Shown here one piece after another: positions 254 to 8,296 of a stretch of 52,179 nt of DNA. A program made the translations under genes and the position numbers. Source of the stretch: Bacteroidota bacterium (GTDB lineage: Bacteria > Bacteroidota > Bacteroidia > NS11-12g > UBA955); assembly GCA_030834125.1 (NCBI GenBank), contig JAURFW010000013.1, positions 1-52,179 of the forward strand, read 5' to 3'. Position 1 is the stretch's first letter; the number at the start of each line of letters is the position of its first letter. The notes under the pieces are model-generated. The model saw only the letters and a program-made list of their open reading frames with translations. It was not told the DNA's origin and ran no database searches.

Positions 254-775
254 ATGATCCGATTTTCCCTAAAAATCCCTAAAAGTAATACTCCTCATTC
301 GTACACAGGTAAAACCGTAGGTATCATCCATGTGGAAATGAAATTTGATGCTGGTTTACGTTTGAGAAGGTCACTTCAAATGAAGATTACAGTGGATGAT
401 TGGATTTTGGAACGTCAACGAGTAAAACCTCAGGCCCAAGGGGCTATGGAGGTAAATATGGTCTTGAATCAAATTGAGGCGAAGTTTCAGGAGTTGAATC
501 ATCGGGTGCGTTACACAGGTGAGCAGTTGAACATTCAATTGGTGGAAGATGAAATCTTACATGCATTTAAAAACGGAGGCATCAGAAGCAAACAAAAGCA
601 GAAAAAGCCGTTGGAGTTTTTTAATGAATATTTGGAGTCTTGCCGACATCGATTGTCAACTAGTTCCATTAAGGCGTATCAATCAGCCATTAAACATTTA
701 CAAGGGTATTCGGAGGTTCATCGGGCGCCACTCGCCTTGGACGATATACAATTCTCCTTCCTCAATAACACTTAA
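254..775 (+). pseudogene. Truncated tyrosine recombinase (N-terminal domains only)
   Basis: The 173-residue product looks like the N-terminal half of a Bacteroidota phage-type integrase. An Arm-type DNA-binding domain covers roughly residues 1-80, followed by a SAM-like core-binding segment that includes FFNEYLESCRHRLSTSSIKA (about 121-140). Complete members are about 380-420 residues and carry a C-terminal catalytic domain with R-H-R-Y residues. That whole domain is absent here, and no continuation is visible in any frame downstream. The start at 254 is supported by a strong AGGAGG at 241-246. The protein cannot catalyse strand exchange; it could at most bind DNA. It is probably the scar of a former integrated element. 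Confidence 0.75.
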
Positions 776-842: not shown

Positions 843-973
843 GGTTAACGGTTGGGTGTATGAGCAGTAGCGGATTAAACCCACTAAACTTTCAGATTGC
901 AAGATACTTAATAAAACACAAAAACGGTTAAGGTATGACACCCAAACCGCTATTGCTTATACACCGTGTTGGT
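843..973. repeat. Long imperfect inverted repeat between recombinase remnant and YHYH gene
   Basis: A 19 bp arm at 855-873 (GGTGTATGAGCAGTAGCGG) is inverted at 947-965 (CCGCTATTGCTTATACACC). Only two positions differ and both would be G-T pairs in a folded single strand. The loop is about 73 bases. Outside the arms lie GTTAAC (left) and GTGTTGG (right). I remember similar paired motifs from intergenic regions of other Bacteroidota, but I could not check this. The size and layout are also reminiscent of an integron attC site, with imperfect end motifs. Confidence 0.65.
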
Positions 974-984
974 GGTAGTAATTC

Positions 985-2328
985 TTATTTTTCAACAATA
1001 ACTTTCCTTGTCAAGCTCATATTGTTGGTAGATATTTTAATTAAATAGGTGCCTGAATATAATGTTTGGATGTCGAAATAACCAACGGTTTGTCCACTTT
1101 TTAAGGTTTTTTCTTGGATTAATTTCCCTTGCATATCATACATTTCAATATTTAAATCTTGGAGATTTAATCCTCCAATTTGTATGGCAATGAAATCAGA
1201 CGTTGGATTAGGAAATATTTTGATATTTTTATTTTCCAAATCACTTTCTACAGTTGACAATGTTGCGTCATAAACTGTTGTATTTTCGTCCACCAAATTA
1301 ACCTTTCTATCCTGATAAACACCATAAAAAGTAGGTCCTACTGCATAAGGGTAAGCTGAGTTCCAATTGGAATCTACAGTAGTAAAATAACAATAGATAC
1401 CATTGGGGTACTCTGGAGTCACACAAAAACGTCCGTTATGTTCATCTAAATAATCGGATTGACTGCTATGATTTACATATTCATAATCTTCTCTAAATGT
1501 TCCAAGCGGCCAAGATGTTTCGGATGGAACATTACCAGTACCTCTGGTTGTTTTTAACTGATAGCTCGATTTTATTCTTACAATTCCTCCTGTACCATCT
1601 GTATTTGCATAACCATAAGATCCATATATCGGGAAACCATCATAAGCAAACCCAATTAGTGGAGAATGTTGTGTACTATCTATCGCATATAAACCATCTG
1701 CATCGTAAAGATTACAGATAGTAGAAACAACATTTAAATCTAAATCAAATGCTGATGGATTCTGATGATGATGGTAATTTCCCATTGCTGGATGACCTTT
1801 AGAACAGTCGAATCCAGACATTTCAGCTAGAATAGCATCCCTATTCCAATCCATTGTTGCTCCAGGACCTCCAGGGCAACGTGGATTTCCCGGCCCTCCA
1901 CACAAAGAGTTAGTAGTTGGATTCCAAGCTACACCATCTCGATAATCAAATAAAGCAACACCGTTGATAAATACTCCAATATTTCCCATTGTTGTCGCAG
2001 TTGGCGTTCCCGAATTTTGAGTTGGATTTAATGGAAATTTAAAAATGGCATCTTGATCTTCTGCTTGTGATGGGTTTCCATCTAGAAATGGTCCAGTTGG
2101 ATAGGACGGAATTCCTTTTGTGTGGATGAATACATTGTTCGTTGAATATTCTACCATTTGACAATTCACCAATATATTATTGGAAATAGTTGTTGAGTTT
2201 CCAGACATATAATAAGACCCTGTTGTTGTGGTATTTTGTAACCAAGAAGTTATTGCTGGATTAGTTTGAGCAAACATACTTGTGATGCTCATCAATAATG
2301 CCCCAAAGGCTATTGTTGTTTTTTTCAT
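985..2328 (-). CDS. YHYH-domain protein exported by T9SS
   Basis: This 447-residue secreted protein has a signal peptide (1-20, ending SMFAQ), a YHYH domain in the middle and a type A T9SS sorting domain from about residue 370 (KIFPNPTSDF to the C-terminal VIVEK). The name-giving motif reads GNYHHHQ at about 193-199. Nearby Cys residues at about 143, 151 and 175 and several His could bind a metal. YHYH proteins have no established reaction. The gene is the last of the minus-strand sigma/MbnP/MbnH unit, 45 bases after the di-haem peroxidase gene, so a link with metal or redox protein maturation at the cell surface is likely by context. The family call is firm; the function is inference. Confidence 0.85.
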   Translation of the reverse strand: MKKTTIAFGALLMSITSMFAQTNPAITSWLQNTTTTGSYYMSGNSTTISNNILVNCQMVEYSTNNVFIHTKGIPSYPTGPFLDGNPSQAEDQDAIFKFPLNPTQNSGTPTATTMGNIGVFINGVALFDYRDGVAWNPTTNSLCGGPGNPRCPGGPGATMDWNRDAILAEMSGFDCSKGHPAMGNYHHHQNPSAFDLDLNVVSTICNLYDADGLYAIDSTQHSPLIGFAYDGFPIYGSYGYANTDGTGGIVRIKSSYQLKTTRGTGNVPSETSWPLGTFREDYEYVNHSSQSDYLDEHNGRFCVTPEYPNGIYCYFTTVDSNWNSAYPYAVGPTFYGVYQDRKVNLVDENTTVYDATLSTVESDLENKNIKIFPNPTSDFIAIQIGGLNLQDLNIEMYDMQGKLIQEKTLKSGQTVGYFDIQTLYSGTYLIKISTNNMSLTRKVIVEK

Positions 2329-2373
2329 TTATAAATATTATGATGACATATAAGGTTAGACGACAAGAAATTT

Positions 2374-3405
2374 TTATTCCTTCGCTTGGTCTGCTATTTT
2401 TTTGAATTGATGTTTTTTATTGAATACAAAATCTTTGTCGTTTAAGGTGAGTAAGAAGGAAATAAGGTCTACTTTTTCATTTGAGGATAGTTCTATTGAC
2501 TCATTAAATTGTAACGAAAGTGTTTCCGAATATTCAATACCTGAAGTGTAGTGGTTTATTACTTCCTTTAGTGTCATAAATCGTCCATCGTGCATGTACG
2601 GATAGGTGAATGATAAATTTCGGAGACTTGGCACTTTAAATTTTCTTTTGTCATTTTCATTTTGTGTGATAACATATCTCCCCATATCATTCAGTGTTTG
2701 GTCAATCGGTAATCCATTGTTTTCAAAATTGTAATTGGAAAAAAAAGGTTCGGAATGACAACTTGCACAATTGTTTTTATATAATTGATAACCATTTTTT
2801 TCTTGTTCAGTAAATGTTTCTTTACCCATTTTTACCTTATCGTATTTTGTATTTGACGAAACAAGAGTAAGTTGAAACTGTGATAAGGCTTTTAAAATTT
2901 TAGATGTACTAATAGTGGAATCTTGAAAAGCATTTAAAAATAACTTTTTGTATGCTTTAGATTCATTTAACTTTTTAATCACTTCGTTTATATTGCTACC
3001 CATTTCGCTAGGATGAGAAATAGGCGCCAAGGCTTGCATATCTAAATGGTTTATTGCTCCGTCCCACATAAATGTTTTTTGCCAAGCTAAATTGAATAAG
3101 GCAGGTGCATTTCTATTGCCAATAGAATCAAAAATGCCGTGACTTAAATCGTGGTCAGTATGTGCAAAGGCGTTAAAAGGAGAATGACAAGAAGCACAGG
3201 AAATTGTATTGTCTTTCGAAAGTATAGGGTCATAAAATAATATCCTACCTAATTCTATTTTATTACTATCTAAGGGGTTTTGCTCAAAATTATAAACTGT
3301 TTTTGGAAAATAATCAGGTGGGGAGAAAAAGAGATTATCCTTTTTTAAAACAAAGGATAGTATCATAAATGCAAATAAGACAAGGATAACTTTGTTTTTC
3401 CACAT
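2374..3405 (-). CDS. MbnH/MauG-like di-haem cytochrome c peroxidase family protein
   Basis: The 343-residue protein has an N-terminal hydrophobic export segment (about 5-20) and two haem c motifs, CASCH at 70-74 and CASCH at 213-217. This is the layout of the bacterial cytochrome c peroxidase/MauG superfamily. The YMHDGRF segment near residue 270 is typical of the distal part of the second domain. MbnH, a family member, oxidises a tryptophan of its partner MbnP to kynurenine using peroxide. Here the gene directly abuts an MbnP-family gene with no gap, which makes the MbnH role more likely than general peroxide removal. It should act in the periplasm and need cytochrome c maturation. Which subfamily it belongs to cannot be settled by eye. 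Confidence 0.85.
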   Translation of the reverse strand: MWKNKVILVLFAFMILSFVLKKDNLFFSPPDYFPKTVYNFEQNPLDSNKIELGRILFYDPILSKDNTISCASCHSPFNAFAHTDHDLSHGIFDSIGNRNAPALFNLAWQKTFMWDGAINHLDMQALAPISHPSEMGSNINEVIKKLNESKAYKKLFLNAFQDSTISTSKILKALSQFQLTLVSSNTKYDKVKMGKETFTEQEKNGYQLYKNNCASCHSEPFFSNYNFENNGLPIDQTLNDMGRYVITQNENDKRKFKVPSLRNLSFTYPYMHDGRFMTLKEVINHYTSGIEYSETLSLQFNESIELSSNEKVDLISFLLTLNDKDFVFNKKHQFKKIADQAKE

Positions 3406-4065
3406 TTAACGAGTTGTATTAAAAAGAAAGACAAATTTATCCGCAATCTGCACCGCATTATCATTGGGTGACATTATTTGATATTCTTCTGAAATTTCTA
3501 TTTCTTCAAACAACTTATCTAATTGTATAGATACCTTTCCATTAGTTTTCAAAGAAACTTGTCTTAGTGTGTTATATGGAGGGGAATACCCTCCAATGTG
3601 CCAATAAAACTTATTTTTACGTGCAGGACAAAGGCTGGATGTCCCTTCTAGTTTAAAGTTGATGTAACCACTCTGCCAAGTCCAATACATACCATTTGCA
3701 GGGTCTAGATCTCCTTCAAAAATGCCTGAAACATTAGTTAAACTATCAACCCCAATATTGAATCGTATTTTATCGAACTTGAAAAATTCATTTTCCATTA
3801 TGATAAACGAACGACTATCTGTAGCATCAATCAAATGTGCTTTTTTTATTGATGAGTGTACGATAGAATCATTTTTATAGTAAGTTAAATTGCTGATGTA
3901 ACATTTAAAATTACTTATGTTCAGGGTATCATTTTTAAAATAATACACTTTGTTTAATGTTAAATTCTCTCTCTCAAATTTTGGCAGAAAAGTAATTTTA
4001 ACCGCATTTTGAGAATGCGTTTGAAAAGTCATAAATAACATACCAAATAATACATACTGTTTCAT
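3406..4065 (-). CDS. MbnP-family periplasmic copper-binding-type protein
   Basis: The 219-residue protein has a signal peptide ending near THSQN (residue 20) and the pattern of the MbnP domain: an early beta-rich half with KCYISNL, then DPANGMYWTWQSGYINFKLE (121-140), and FYWHIGG (153-159). In methanotrophs the partner MbnH converts a Trp of MbnP to kynurenine and the protein binds copper; Trp128, Trp130 and Trp155 are the candidates here. It starts directly at the end of the CnrX-like gene and ends directly at the start of the di-haem peroxidase gene. It is therefore translated as a pair with its presumed modifying enzyme. There is no methanobactin precursor or biosynthesis gene in the window. 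Confidence 0.82.
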   Translation of the reverse strand: MKQYVLFGMLFMTFQTHSQNAVKITFLPKFERENLTLNKVYYFKNDTLNISNFKCYISNLTYYKNDSIVHSSIKKAHLIDATDSRSFIIMENEFFKFDKIRFNIGVDSLTNVSGIFEGDLDPANGMYWTWQSGYINFKLEGTSSLCPARKNKFYWHIGGYSPPYNTLRQVSLKTNGKVSIQLDKLFEEIEISEEYQIMSPNDNAVQIADKFVFLFNTTR

Positions 4066-4524
4066 TTATTTGGGTTTTCTTGGATGAATATTTTTATTGA
4101 ATAGAATGTCTAATTCTCCAATCAACAAATCGAAATTTGGCATTTGTTCAGGTGTACAAATAGATTTAATGTCTTTGAAATGATTAAAATGAATGCGTTC
4201 GATTTCTTGTTGCGTGTGACCAATTTCCTTAGTTAGCGAATCTGTTTCTTGGTTACTGTATCTTTTAATGAGTAGGCGATAAAGTTCCTTTTTTAGCTGA
4301 ATTATCTTTTGGTCATTGGTACGAATGTCCATTCTGTGTTGGTCAATTAACTTTTCGTAGGCAACAATTTGTTCTTCGTCAAATGCCAATTTTTCTATGA
4401 TTACTTTCTTCGGACCATAACCAAAAGGTTTGTGTTTTCTATTTTGCATCATAAAAAACAGGGTAGCTAAATTGGATATTATTAATAGCCCTATCAGTAG
4501 TAGATAAAATTTTCTTCTATTCAT
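4066..4524 (-). CDS. Periplasmic heavy-metal-sensor-like protein (CnrX/CpxP-Spy type)
   Basis: The 152-residue protein is anchored by one N-terminal membrane helix (about 6-26), followed by a highly charged all-helical domain. Features are a Pro/Gly linker (KPFGYGPKK), LAFDEEQIVAYEKLIDQHR, a long basic/acidic helix pair and a late TPEQMPNFDLL segment. This matches membrane-anchored CpxP/Spy/CnrX-like 'heavy-metal resistance' proteins of Bacteroidota. CnrX senses Ni/Co in the CnrYXH system and signals through an anti-sigma factor. The gene overlaps the upstream small membrane protein gene by 8 bases and abuts mbnP, so it probably senses the metal handled by the downstream products. The ligand cannot be told from sequence. 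Confidence 0.75.
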   Translation of the reverse strand: MNRRKFYLLLIGLLIISNLATLFFMMQNRKHKPFGYGPKKVIIEKLAFDEEQIVAYEKLIDQHRMDIRTNDQKIIQLKKELYRLLIKRYSNQETDSLTKEIGHTQQEIERIHFNHFKDIKSICTPEQMPNFDLLIGELDILFNKNIHPRKPK

Positions 4525-4777
4525 AGTATAGTGAATTATTGTTTACTTCTACCAATTCAATCTCATTATTGAATTGGTTAATCTCACTTGAAAATCCTAA
4601 AAAATAAAATTGAGCCAACATTAAACCTATCACGAAAGAAGCTGCAATGCCTACTTTTAATATCGGTATATTATTTTCTCTATTCTTTTCAAAACGACAT
4701 TCTATTGTGTGATAAAGTGCGTCAGGCACTTCTATGCGTTTTATGTTTTTGAGAATATCTAGGTTATCTAGTTCCAT
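4517..4777 (-). CDS. Small membrane protein, putative anti-sigma factor
   Basis: The 86-residue protein has an N-terminal cytoplasmic stretch of about 40 residues (MELDNLDILKNIKRIEVP...), one transmembrane helix (about 42-62, VGIAASFVIGLMLAQFYFLG) and a short acidic periplasmic tail. Its position directly after an ECF sigma gene (38 bases) and overlapping a CnrX-like gene is that of an anti-sigma factor such as CnrY. There is no zinc-binding HxxxCxxC motif, so it is not a classical ZAS anti-sigma. I infer the role from topology and context only; the sequence itself is not a recognisable family. Confidence 0.6.
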   Translation of the reverse strand: MELDNLDILKNIKRIEVPDALYHTIECRFEKNRENNIPILKVGIAASFVIGLMLAQFYFLGFSSEINQFNNEIELVEVNNNSLYYE

Positions 4778-4815
4778 ATTTACTTAGACGATATTTTAAT
4801 AGTATTCCTACGTTG

Positions 4816-5337
4816 TTATAGTATTTTTTTTAAAGAAGTTTTTGCTCGCTGAAACAGAGATTCAACTGCTCCTTCGGATAGTTTCATTATTTCAGCTACT
4901 TCCCTTTGCGTTAAACCTTCAATTTTCAATAAAATGATGACTGTTTTTTGATTTTTAGGAAGACGATATATTTTTTGCATTAAAATTTTTAGGCTTTCAT
5001 CTTGCTCCATTAGAATCCCTGGGTGGTCAAAGTCGGGTAGGAGGTTTTCTTTATATGAACTATCACTACTTAAAAGTGAAATGATAAAACTCCGTTTTTT
5101 ACGTTGTTTATATTTTAAAAAGTCAAGCGATTGATTAATGGTAATTCGGTAAATCCAAGTTTTAAGGTCCGCATCCTTTCGGAAAGTTTGCCACTTATCA
5201 AAAATTTTCACAAAAACATCTTGTGTGATTTCTTCAGCATCTTGCCTGTTTTGACAATACTGCAATGCGAGATTGAATACCAAGTTTTTATATTGATTAT
5301 AGATATTCTTATATGTCACAGATTTTTTTACCACCAA
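4816..5337 (-). CDS. ECF-type RNA polymerase sigma factor
   Basis: The 173-residue protein has sigma region 2 (about 10-80, with QDAEEITQDVFVKIFDKW and LKTWIYRITINQSLDFLK) and region 4 (about 118-172, with LTQREVAEIMKLSEGAVESL as helix-turn-helix). That is a complete ECF sigma without regions 1 or 3. No ATG lies in a suitable place: the frame opens at TTG (5337), next to a GTG, with an AGGAGG about 20 bases further upstream. As first gene of the unit it probably directs transcription of its own operon when released by the downstream membrane protein. It is intact, in contrast to the truncated sigma near 34.9 kb. Confidence 0.88.
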   Translation of the reverse strand: MVVKKSVTYKNIYNQYKNLVFNLALQYCQNRQDAEEITQDVFVKIFDKWQTFRKDADLKTWIYRITINQSLDFLKYKQRKKRSFIISLLSSDSSYKENLLPDFDHPGILMEQDESLKILMQKIYRLPKNQKTVIILLKIEGLTQREVAEIMKLSEGAVESLFQRAKTSLKKIL

Positions 5338-5748
5338 CTTGTTATATGGAGAATAAACCTCCTAATTTATAAGTATCTTTTACTAGAAAACAGGAACTTT
5401 TGTTCTCGTTTATCATTTTTATTCAAAAATAAAAAAATAAGTTCTTTACAGAATTAAACTTTTTTCAATACTATTTTGGACCGGTCTAATAATTTCTGGA
5501 GGATCTTCTGTTAATCTTTGAGAGTGTTTAACCGAAGTCTTTTAATTAAAAAACGGTTACACTATAAAAGTATAACCGTTTTATCATTATATGTTGCTCC
5601 CCCTCTTGGAGTGTAAATTTAGAGTTTAAGTAATTGAAATATAATTAGATGTATGAAGGAGTGGTGATCAGGTGAAACAATTCCATTTCAATTTGTCAGT
5701 GTTGAAAACAATTGTAATTAATAAAATATTATATTATTTTGCACTTCT
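5338..5748. other. Intergenic region upstream of the sigma operon
   Basis: These 411 bases between the divergently read sigma gene and the WD40 remnant encode nothing I can support. They should hold the sigma operon promoter. Visible elements are the GC-rich palindrome GACCGGTC at 5479-5486 in an otherwise A/T-rich stretch, about 140 bases before the sigma start, and the terminator-like hairpin at 5550-5582. Just before 5749 there is a near-match to a Bacteroidota -7 element (TATTTTG, ending about 8 bases before the ATG). Confidence 0.5.
5550..5582. terminator. Bidirectional hairpin terminator
   Basis: AAAACGGTTA (5550-5559) pairs perfectly with TAACCGTTTT (5573-5582), with A- and T-runs built into the stem ends. 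No gene ends right at it, which suggests it belonged to a gene now lost from this spot. Confidence 0.6.
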
Positions 5749-6271
5749 ATGCAGATTAAAAAGTATATCCATTATTTATTACTTTTAACCTTTTCAACAC
5801 TTACTTACTTTGCCCAAGCTCAAAACGAGGCTAAAATGGTTTTGCCCATTAGGCATACAGATTTTGTTACCTCAGCACACTATAACGCCAGTGGCAGCCA
5901 AATAGTAACGGCGTCTTATGATAATACCGCCAGGAAGTTTTGGTAATATGACAATCAATGCAAATACTGAAATATGGAATTTTGTTTCAAAATTTAATTT
6001 GAATGGCCAGATAGGTTGTGCATCCAATTCTAGCATAAATTCGGAAAATAGAGTAAAAATAATAATATCCCCTAATCCTTGTAAATCGCAATTGCGCGTA
6101 ATTAATCGAGCAGATACCAAATCCAATTATTTTATCTATACAATTCTTGGAGAACCCGTTTTAAATGGAGTTTTACGCCGGGGTAATAATGAATTTGATT
6201 TATCTGAGCTAGCTTCAAATATCTATATATTCAAAGCAGGAGATATGTATACTCGGATAATTAAAAATTAA
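5749..6271 (+). pseudogene. WD40-protein head fused out of frame to a T9SS sorting-domain tail
   Basis: Two reading frames together look like the ends of one deleted gene. Frame A (5749-5946) encodes a signal peptide (ending FAQAQ) and the start of a WD40 repeat (HTDFVTSAHYNASGSQIVTA, then DNTARKFW) and stops at residue 65. Frame B (5918-6271 as an open frame) encodes a C-terminal T9SS type A sorting domain: IIISPNPCKSQL, then LSELASNIYIFKAG. Full WD40/T9SS proteins are many hundreds of residues long, so the middle appears to be lost and the frame broken around 5935-5946. Secretion of the tail is impossible without the signal peptide. I regard the locus as dead. Confidence 0.6.
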
Positions 6272-6578: not shown

Positions 6579-6713
6579 CTTTTCGTACAAACAGAATTTT
6601 TTATTGAGTCATTCTGGTGACAAATGTATTATAGAGACTTTAGTTAATATAGGTGTCGGTTGAGTTTATGCGTGTTTATATTATATCAACATGTGATTAA
6701 TAAGAAAGTGTTA

Positions 6714-7505
6714 ATGATTACCAATAAAAAAGCAACTGACAATCTGATGAGATATTTTATCTTAATATTTTGGGCATTATTTTGGTTATTTAATGTTATT
6801 GATAAGTTAATGGGCGGAGCTCATTACTTATTTGTTGGAAAGGATAGATTCGCTCAAATTCAAAGGTATTTTGACTCAATAGGACTTGGTAATCCAATGG
6901 TTACCAATTTTACGCTGACGTTCACAGCGGCATTGGAAGCTTTTGCCTTGGTGTGTTTTTTAGGTGCGTTGTACCATCTTATTCGAAAAAATCTTGAATC
7001 TAATCGGGTTTGGTTTTTCTTAGGAATTTCTACAACACTTACTGTATACATCTTTTTTTCAATTGGCGATCAAATTTTTGGTGATCATTCGGAACTTTTA
7101 GAACACGCCTTGTTTTGGTTTATTGCGCTGTTGTCTTGGATTATTTTTAATCGCAATAACCAATTTCATATATTCGATAATTTCTCCATAAGTAAAAAGC
7201 CAATCTTACTTTTTACTTTGTTTGCGATAATTATAGGGTCCATTACATGCTTTAGTATTTTTAGGCATAATCAAATCGCATTTAAGGAACGGACACAAGC
7301 TGTTCAAGCAAAGAGAATAAGTGAAAACAAGTATAAAATCGAGTTCCCCTTTCTTGCTGGTAGTAGCGCATTTGAAAGTACAATAGCAAAATTCAAGGAA
7401 CAACATACTGATTTAAGAATCAACTACATTTATACCGCCCCGAAACCCATGAGGTTAGGTCAATCCGATGGACTGATTATTTATTTACAAACCGAAGAGA
7501 AATGA
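6714..7505 (+). CDS. Multi-pass membrane protein, tandem paralogue A (DoxX-like)
   Basis: The 263-residue protein has four or five hydrophobic helices in the first 185 residues and a C-terminal soluble part of about 75 residues. Motifs shared with the next gene are NVIDK near the first helix, NP followed by a helix with AALEAF, GDQIFGD followed by LLEH and FW, and a C-terminal Y-(K/E)-FPFLA segment. The helix order with an early 'DK' and a second helix containing a Glu recalls DoxX-type quinone-linked membrane proteins, but that is only a resemblance. I chose ATG 6714 because it gives the same length as the paralogue; the frame stays open upstream to a TTG at 6660. The gene overlaps the next by 4 bases. 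Confidence 0.7.
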   Translation: MITNKKATDNLMRYFILIFWALFWLFNVIDKLMGGAHYLFVGKDRFAQIQRYFDSIGLGNPMVTNFTLTFTAALEAFALVCFLGALYHLIRKNLESNRVWFFLGISTTLTVYIFFSIGDQIFGDHSELLEHALFWFIALLSWIIFNRNNQFHIFDNFSISKKPILLFTLFAIIIGSITCFSIFRHNQIAFKERTQAVQAKRISENKYKIEFPFLAGSSAFESTIAKFKEQHTDLRINYIYTAPKPMRLGQSDGLIIYLQTEEK

Positions 7506-8296
7506 TAAAAGAGAAAGTAGCGATAAAGTATCTAATCCTTATTTATTGGACCTTTTTCTTCTTAACTGGCGTTATCGATAAGATTGTACCTGATGTATAT
7601 CCATTTTGGGTTGGAGCGGATTTTTATACTTTGTTTATTAAACTTTTCGCTTCTTTAGAAATTAAAAATCCCATTTACGCAACTATTACATTGGCGGGGG
7701 TTTCGCTGATAGAGGTCATGACTTTCGTTTGTTATTTATTTGCGCTATGTGGTTTATTCTTTAAAAATGAGAGTTCCTCAGATCAGTGGTTTAACAGAGG
7801 GGTCTCTCTTTCCATTTTGTTGTTTAGTTTCTTTACCATAGGTGATCAAGTTTTTGGAGACCGTTTTACACTTCTTGAGCACAGTATTTTTTGGATAATT
7901 TTGGTTGTTTCATGGGTGTTATTTAATCATAATTCACTTTTGGGTGATCAATCATTTCAACTTCGTTTTACGGGGGAAGTTAAAATTGGTTTAATTGTGT
8001 GGGCTGCCATCGTTATTATTATCTCCTATTTCAACTTTGGATTTTCCAAGAATACATTCGCAAACAAATTCAAACCGGTTCACGGTGAAGAAGTGGTTGA
8101 GGGTATTTATAAATTTGATTTTCCCTTCTTGGCAGACAAGAGAACTTTGGAGTACACCATTCGTTCGTTCGAAAATAAACACCCTGAATTGGAGATAAAC
8201 TATTTATATACAGGGCCAAACGAATTGAATACAAAAAAGAAGACGCATATGTTACTGTATGTATTCACTGAAGAGAAGCCTACGGAAGCAAATTGA
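7502..8296 (+). CDS. Multi-pass membrane protein, tandem paralogue B (DoxX-like)
   Basis: The 264-residue protein is a diverged duplicate of its upstream neighbour. The first helix ends GVIDKI; later come SLIEVMTF, GDQVFGD with LLEHSIFW, a last membrane helix near 165-182, and a C-terminal part with YKFDFPFLADKR and LEINYLYTGPNE. An ATGA overlap of 4 bases with the upstream gene indicates translational coupling. The two products could form a heterodimer. Function is unknown to me. It ends directly at the first copy of the intergenic repeat. Confidence 0.7.
   Translation: MIKEKVAIKYLILIYWTFFFLTGVIDKIVPDVYPFWVGADFYTLFIKLFASLEIKNPIYATITLAGVSLIEVMTFVCYLFALCGLFFKNESSSDQWFNRGVSLSILLFSFFTIGDQVFGDRFTLLEHSIFWIILVVSWVLFNHNSLLGDQSFQLRFTGEVKIGLIVWAAIVIIISYFNFGFSKNTFANKFKPVHGEEVVEGIYKFDFPFLADKRTLEYTIRSFENKHPELEINYLYTGPNELNTKKKTHMLLYVFTEEKPTEAN

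Follow-up and report, generated by a model that had tools for sequence, protein, structure and literature searches.

Pairs of genes for MbnP and its di-haem partner MbnH occur far beyond the producers of methanobactin, some of them near genes for extracytoplasmic function (ECF) sigma factors and sensors, as was described in 2013 (PMC3621798). MopE and CorA are methanotroph copper proteins containing kynurenine (PMC3621798, PMC3912023, PMC3423442). Here we analyse a stretch of 52,179 nucleotides from a Bacteroidota bacterium (assembly GCA_030834125.1, contig JAURFW010000013.1), hereafter the window, in which six minus-strand genes between positions 985 and 5337 encode an ECF sigma factor, a candidate anti-sigma factor, a periplasmic sensor, MbnP, an MbnH-type enzyme and a protein of the YHYH family. 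These genes are a real, conserved unit, of which we are practically certain, and what is new is that they stand alone, in the window as in its relatives, between boundaries resembling the attC sites of integrons. An earlier note on this DNA, made from the sequence alone, had read the unit as a CnrX-like copper switch governing a modified copper protein and a surface protein, an interpretation which is partly supported: the conserved unit, the MbnH/MauG type of the enzyme, the WxW of MbnP, the CnrX fold of the sensor and the type IX tail of the YHYH protein stand, but Glu63 and Met123 of CnrX are not kept.

The order of the genes, their spacings and their motifs, on re-reading the list of open reading frames (ORFs), match those given before, including the two CASCH haem motifs, the Trp-rich core of MbnP and the histidine motif of the YHYH protein. 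From the sigma side, the unit begins with the ECF sigma factor (4816–5337; Sigma70_r2, 2.1e-17; r4_2, 2.5e-12), followed by a small single-pass membrane protein of 86 residues (4517–4777), which by its CnrY-like size and position is the candidate anti-sigma factor, and by the sensor of 152 residues (4066–4524), in which AlphaFold2 predicts one N-terminal membrane helix and then an alpha-hairpin. The MbnP-family protein of 219 residues (3406–4065; PF20243, 4.4e-41) carries an export signal, the core M126-Y-W128-T-W130 and H156; the MbnH/MauG-type di-haem enzyme of 343 residues (2374–3405; PF03150, CCP_MauG, 9.7e-55) carries the CASCH motifs; and the YHYH-family protein of 447 residues (985–2328; PF14240, 2.6e-60) combines a signal peptide with a type IX sorting tail. 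By ORF coordinates the intergenic gaps, from the YHYH gene towards the sigma gene, are 45, 0, 0, -8 and 38 bases, and Pfam gave no significant match for the sensor or the small membrane protein. One start is revised: the sigma ORF, previously begun at TTG 5337, probably starts at GTG 5319 (167 residues), because relatives have a 4-base length difference just upstream and are in frame only from the GTG.

The conservation of the unit was followed by a scan for MbnP in about 85,000 species genomes, which gave 65 Bacteroidota loci whose neighbourhoods were read with profiles from the window proteins; stricter limits and extra genomes later brought the number to 76 MbnP loci. MbnH follows MbnP in 63 of the 66 loci with 2.6 kb of downstream sequence, and the YHYH gene comes directly after the pair in 51 of these 66 and within 6 kb in 56; in three further loci (L071, L072 and L073) it precedes the pair, once with one gene between. 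The trio of sigma, anti-sigma and sensor genes lies directly ahead of MbnP in 30 of the 71 loci with enough upstream sequence, and all six genes in the same order were found in 22 of the 62 Bacteroidota loci long on both flanks. A first count of 23 had been inflated by a multicopper oxidase, very probably matched through its type IX secretion system (T9SS) tail, and was corrected by the stricter limit. Since 22 loci share the order, the arrangement is not a matter of chance; the same count rules out an operon unique to the source genome, and the co-occurrence of MbnP, MbnH, YHYH, sigma and sensor genes across Bacteroidota, for which the earlier note had proposed a neighbourhood search, is borne out.

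In a tree of MbnH, the trio is scattered, with 12 changes against a shuffled mean of 20.6, many branches being weak; this pattern is consistent with an old six-gene unit that has repeatedly lost its switch, and falls short of proof. Of 119 genomes of the class, 83 have MbnP, 41 have YHYH and 24 have close homologues of the sensor, and the 20 strong sensor matches (E < 1e-20) divide into 13 beside MbnP, three beside a small YHYH gene lacking MbnP, one beside MbnH and three with none of these, so that MbnP and YHYH are the chief associates of the trio. The source genome itself has two more MbnP/MbnH loci, both without YHYH or the trio (L068:4913-7987 and L069:6505-8412), one with an MbnP bearing a T9SS-like tail and two MbnH-like genes, the other with a single MbnH. 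As regards the genes of about 750 residues upstream of MbnP in sigma-free loci, their identification as TonB receptors was rejected, the three tested being a malic enzyme, a CotH protein and an adhesin-like protein.

A feature that had escaped the earlier note is that the unit, bracketed by attC-like boundaries, appears to behave as one mobile cassette. At the 5' boundary (5337..5338, minus strand), homology with the closest relatives, L003, L004 and L005, begins exactly at G|TTGGTGGTA (window 5338/5337); it stops at G|TT in all three, and the neighbours differ on both sides. The 3' boundary, found by inspection, is an integron-attC-like imperfect palindrome (844..974, minus strand) whose 5' box, CACCAAC, is complementary to the cassette's own first bases. 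Palindromes of 127–131 bases follow the YHYH gene in the window, L004 and L005, the contig of L003 ending earlier. RNAalifold, applied to six sequences, gives an attC-like double arm with two-sided changes in 7 of 18 pairs, and a covariance model built from six sites scores the window site, itself part of the training set, at 127.7 bits (E 4.2e-28). The model finds two more sites in the source genome (C60), flanking a gene of 597 residues, and in the genomes of relatives several consecutive sites on the same strand, about 1–2 kb apart. Over 11 pairs, one of them unreadable and scored zero, the first bases of the cassettes are complementary to the 3' box of the same cassette at 66 of the 77 positions that vary, which none of 20,000 shuffles attains. 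The boundaries enclose 4.49 kb with exactly six genes and nothing else, and therefore constitute independent evidence for one module.

That these boundaries reflect a dispersed palindrome present by coincidence, rather than a site of recombination, would find support in the missing enzyme: no integron integrase over the TIGR02249 cut-off was found in the source genome, in the genomes of L003–L005 or in 58 genomes of the order, for which reason we speak of an integron-like, not a proven integron, system. The exact G|TT stop in three relatives with differing neighbours, the self-complementarity of the ends and the run of same-strand sites argue against coincidence, which we regard as very improbable, and the integron-like cassette is very probably the correct reading of the boundaries, the recombining enzyme being a candidate only. 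In the window, the covariance-model search detected no attC-like site at the neighbour upstream of the cassette, and Rfam returned nothing at gathering thresholds. Other genes of the source lineage are likewise found between attC-like sites with mutually complementary ends (L003, L004, L005 and L101). Tyrosine recombinases, mostly of about 360 residues and below the integron-integrase cut-off, occur in L111, L112, L113, L114, L115 and L116; among the 19 cases listed from the 58 genomes, 6 lie within about 8 kb of attC-like sites. In a related protein whose whole sequence was read (L102), the stretch separating the two parts that match the model is shorter than in the model itself. It is possible that these enzymes represent a non-canonical integron platform. 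Just beyond the attC-like site of the window (254–775, plus strand) lies the N-terminal part of a tyrosine recombinase of the phage/transposon type (Phage_int_SAM_5), which breaks off at 173 residues.

The position of the junction has a bearing on control. As the probable start of the sigma gene lies 18 bases inside it, no promoter can fit between the two, and transcription of the unit must enter from beyond the cassette or begin at a promoter within it. A search ahead of sigma in relatives revealed no conserved block, because the cassette junction lies there, and consensus sites were at chance level. The cassette bounds thus leave no conserved room for an autoregulated promoter ahead of sigma.

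The resemblance of the sensor to CnrX is visible only by structure prediction, the Pfam match to Metal_resist (E 0.15) not being significant. The AlphaFold2 model, a membrane helix with a helical hairpin, has a predicted local distance difference test score (pLDDT) of 86; in Foldseek, the top 8 and 15 of the top 16 matches are CnrX/NccX, and a structural comparison (VIA) gives Z 11.1 over 103 residues with CnrX, the best of the solved structures compared. The predicted fold is clearly that of CnrX, although for helical bundles a higher Z-score would be needed to remove all doubt. Residues kept in relatives include H63 (25/25), H115 (24/24), H112 (18/24) and C123 (22/24), and in a nearly ungapped structural alignment with an offset of 4, as read from the aligned ranges, only His119 among the CnrX ligands compared finds an equivalent, His115. 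The small membrane protein, which sits between sigma and sensor in related loci, has a hydrophobic span near residues 51–75 and a conserved C-terminal LY motif in the alignment of relatives; its profile matched no PDB chain that would show a relation to CnrY, but its size, topology and position fit CnrY. Release of sigma in the manner of CnrYXH appears likely.

As for the effectors, MbnP matches PF20243 over positions 2–188 of 189 with 141 bits (cut-off 27), and while relatives range from 18 to 91% identity to the window protein, M126, W128, W130 and H156 are invariant in 48 of 48 sequences. In MbnP of Methylosinus trichosporium, Cu(I) is held by a His, a Met and a solvent ligand, next to a kynurenine derived from the first Trp of WxW. 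The invariant residues fit this pattern, and by analogy with that protein we take M126 and H156 to be candidate copper ligands. In the di-haem enzyme, C70/C73/H74, C213/C216/H217 and Y286 are invariant in 42 sequences. Its profile finds 6e1c, a 'Di-heme enzyme', as the best PDB match (7.7e-60), followed by cytochrome c peroxidases (5.9e-57); we take 6e1c to be MbnH of M. trichosporium. Tyr286 aligns with a Tyr in 6e1c and with a Met in the cytochrome c peroxidases 1iqc and 3o5c, at what is presumably the distal ligand site of the second haem. Together with the pairing with MbnP, Tyr286 rules out an ordinary CcpA peroxidase, and the grouping with MbnH that the earlier note had put forward is upheld by the Tyr, by 6e1c as the best solved structure and by the pairing. 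Formation of kynurenine in MbnP is, in our judgement, quite probable.

The case for copper comes from neighbouring genes. In L038, L039, L040 and L044 the gene immediately after MbnH, or the one after that, encodes a multicopper oxidase with a T9SS tail (the first two being assigned by similarity to the last two), and another stands next but one to YHYH in L075. Moreover, in three loci (L082:6012-9344, L083:4910-8321 and L084:1943-7607) the same trio precedes genes for a small YHYH protein, for a third, short protein, which in both cases tested is MORN-like, and for an SCO1-type copper chaperone with a CxxxC motif, the third SCO1 being assigned by 42% identity; L084 also has a TonB-receptor-like gene. 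The earlier copper reading is now better supported by these oxidases and chaperones, while it remains an inference, and copper is with good probability the metal of the unit. The unit could instead answer to another metal, or to peroxide or envelope stress, with MbnH mainly removing peroxide and MbnP and YHYH serving protective or structural ends. Sensors of the CnrX family are best known for nickel and cobalt, Spy and CpxP, which share the fold, handle envelope stress and also match the sensor model, and MbnH is related to di-haem peroxidases; yet the near-constant pairing of MbnH with MbnP (63/66) and the Tyr in place of Met speak against this possibility, as do the copper proteins encoded next to relatives, and we consider it unlikely.

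If copper is the metal, a further question concerns the direction of the response. The unit could be switched on when copper is scarce, MbnP and YHYH scavenging it for cytochrome oxidase, which would amount to the preferred copper circuit with the metal-free sensor as the active form. In methanotrophs, copper represses the analogues CorA/CorB (PMC3621798, PMC3912023), and both SCO1, a copper chaperone of cytochrome oxidase, and the TonB-receptor-like protein of L084 share the trio. Sensors of the CnrX type, however, become active when they bind metal, and this speaks for a response to excess, so that we would give acquisition a shade less than an even chance.

Of the exported proteins in the unit, YHYH is the most strongly conserved, its relatives being 55–93% identical to the window protein, and C175, H179, Y185, H186, H187, H188, Q189, N190, C205 and H221 are invariant in 46 relatives. 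The T9SS export tail previously ascribed to it is confirmed by PF18962 (Por_Secre_tail, 2.6e-16) and TIGR04183 (54 bits, cut-off 23). Could this protein be a surface hydrolase that depends on a metal and does the main work of the unit, with MbnP and MbnH supplying or regulating its metal? It is better conserved than MbnP, the trio occurs with YHYH and lacks MbnP in L082, L083 and L084, and a zinc-dependent hydrolase role has been predicted for phage YHYH domains (PMC7824862). The AlphaFold model made with 46 relatives, however, is poor (mean pLDDT 53) and yields no useful fold, and the three MbnP-free loci carry SCO1, again pointing to copper. We know of no catalytic function for YHYH and find a hydrolase at the centre of the unit rather improbable.

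The copper circuit that we prefer would then operate as follows. The CnrX-fold sensor in the inner membrane would detect a metal ion in the periplasm, copper being the most likely one; a changed metal state would alter its contact with the small single-pass anti-sigma factor, which would free the ECF sigma factor to drive the unit. MbnP would be exported to the periplasm, where MbnH with peroxide would convert Trp128, the first Trp of WxW, to kynurenine, which together with Met126 and His156 would form a Cu(I) site. The YHYH protein, exported by the type IX system, would most likely bind copper on the cell surface or outside it, either scavenging the metal or taking part in its transfer, and the six genes would move together as one integron-type cassette in the source lineage. 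The gene content and its conservation, the predicted fold of the sensor, the haem-ligand position of MbnH type and the cassette boundaries are findings of the present analysis; within this scheme we infer the metal, the release of sigma, the oxidation of Trp, the role of YHYH and the direction of the response (shortage or excess), and we lean slightly towards the whole chain, from copper sensing to kynurenine-copper protein and surface protein, being correct.

Several observations weigh against it. The link to copper is drawn from gene neighbours. At the places of Glu63 and Met123 in CnrX the sensor has the conserved hydrophobic residues Leu59 and Ile119, so that its metal site must differ from that of CnrX, and the designation 'CnrX-like' holds for fold and gene arrangement but not for these ligands; to judge from the register, His63, His115 and often His112, at about the same height of the hairpin, could form a different site. 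MbnP scores below the equivalog cut-off of TIGR04052 in NCBIfam (30.5 against 140 bits), and a search by sequence and by profile found no solved MbnP on which to place Met126 and His156; the di-haem protein is likewise below the cut-off of TIGR04039 (MbnH; 222.5 against 362.85 bits), which is nevertheless its best NCBIfam family. To these are added the poor YHYH model, the hydrolase prediction for its phage counterparts and the presence of the trio in three genomes with no MbnP, MbnH or YHYH nearby (L086, L087 and L088). More tentatively still, and with the balance of probability against it, a CnrX-fold copper-sensing ECF switch with a new His-based site would govern a kynurenine-copper protein made with peroxide and a surface copper protein, YHYH, across Bacteroidota, the six-gene circuit being carried by an integron-like system with a non-canonical tyrosine recombinase.

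In L087 and L088 the trio lies about 230–280 bases ahead of three further genes, which in L087 encode an ATP-grasp protein, a pyridoxal phosphate (PLP) decarboxylase similar to FslC, a siderophore enzyme, and a protein resembling urea transporters; these are perhaps metallophore loci. Elsewhere in the window, positions 5749–6271 (plus strand) encode the beginning of a WD40 protein and, out of frame with it, a sorting tail of the T9SS type, as though most of the central part of a gene had been deleted, while 6660–8296 (plus strand) contains two tandem, similar-looking membrane-protein genes of 281 and 264 residues overlapping by 4 bases.

The statement of the earlier note that no described system joins these parts holds, in that the parts are known and their combination was not found in the literature: our search gave no description of CnrX-type control of MbnP/MbnH or of a YHYH partner, no paper joining MbnP and YHYH, and nothing relevant for YHYH with copper. 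The MbnP/MbnH pairs outside methanobactin operons (TIGR04052/TIGR04039, GenProp0940; PMC3621798) have the same two families side by side, but the pairs here score below the family cut-offs and have a T9SS-exported YHYH protein as a regular third partner. Some pairs of Methylosinus have in their vicinity a TonB receptor accompanied by an ECF sigma factor (MbnI) and its sensor (MbnR) (PMC3621798), whereas the six-gene unit lacks a TonB receptor and has a CnrX-fold sensor with a tiny anti-sigma factor in place of the FecR-type MbnR. Because roughly one in three of the Bacteroidota loci examined has a dedicated switch, and a third partner is frequent, the signal becomes directly testable, and the uncharacterised YHYH family gains a functional context. 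MopE/SACCP and CorA/CorB offer a Trp-to-kynurenine copper protein, a di-haem partner, copper-dependent expression and a surface location (PMC3621798, PMC3912023), but are not markedly similar to MbnP in sequence (PMC3621798), and no sigma/anti-sigma/sensor unit is described there.

CnrYXH of Cupriavidus metallidurans likewise comprises an ECF sigma factor, a small single-pass membrane protein and a membrane-anchored alpha-hairpin sensor. The present unit differs in its order of sigma, anti-sigma and sensor, in the loss of conservation at CnrX Glu63 and Met123, and in that the module precedes, and would control, MbnP/MbnH/YHYH rather than an efflux pump. Finally, integron cassettes and clusters of attC sites lacking integrases (CALIN) share with it the attC-like 3' site, the G|TT junction, the self-complementary ends and the arrays of other cassettes, but a cassette usually has one ORF, sometimes two or none (PMC8618304), as against six genes in 4.5 kb here. 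Such an arrangement suggests that one cassette holds a complete circuit of sensor, regulator and effectors, much more than the single gene that is usual, and would occur in a group, the Bacteroidetes, from which few integrons have been reported (PMC9024848).

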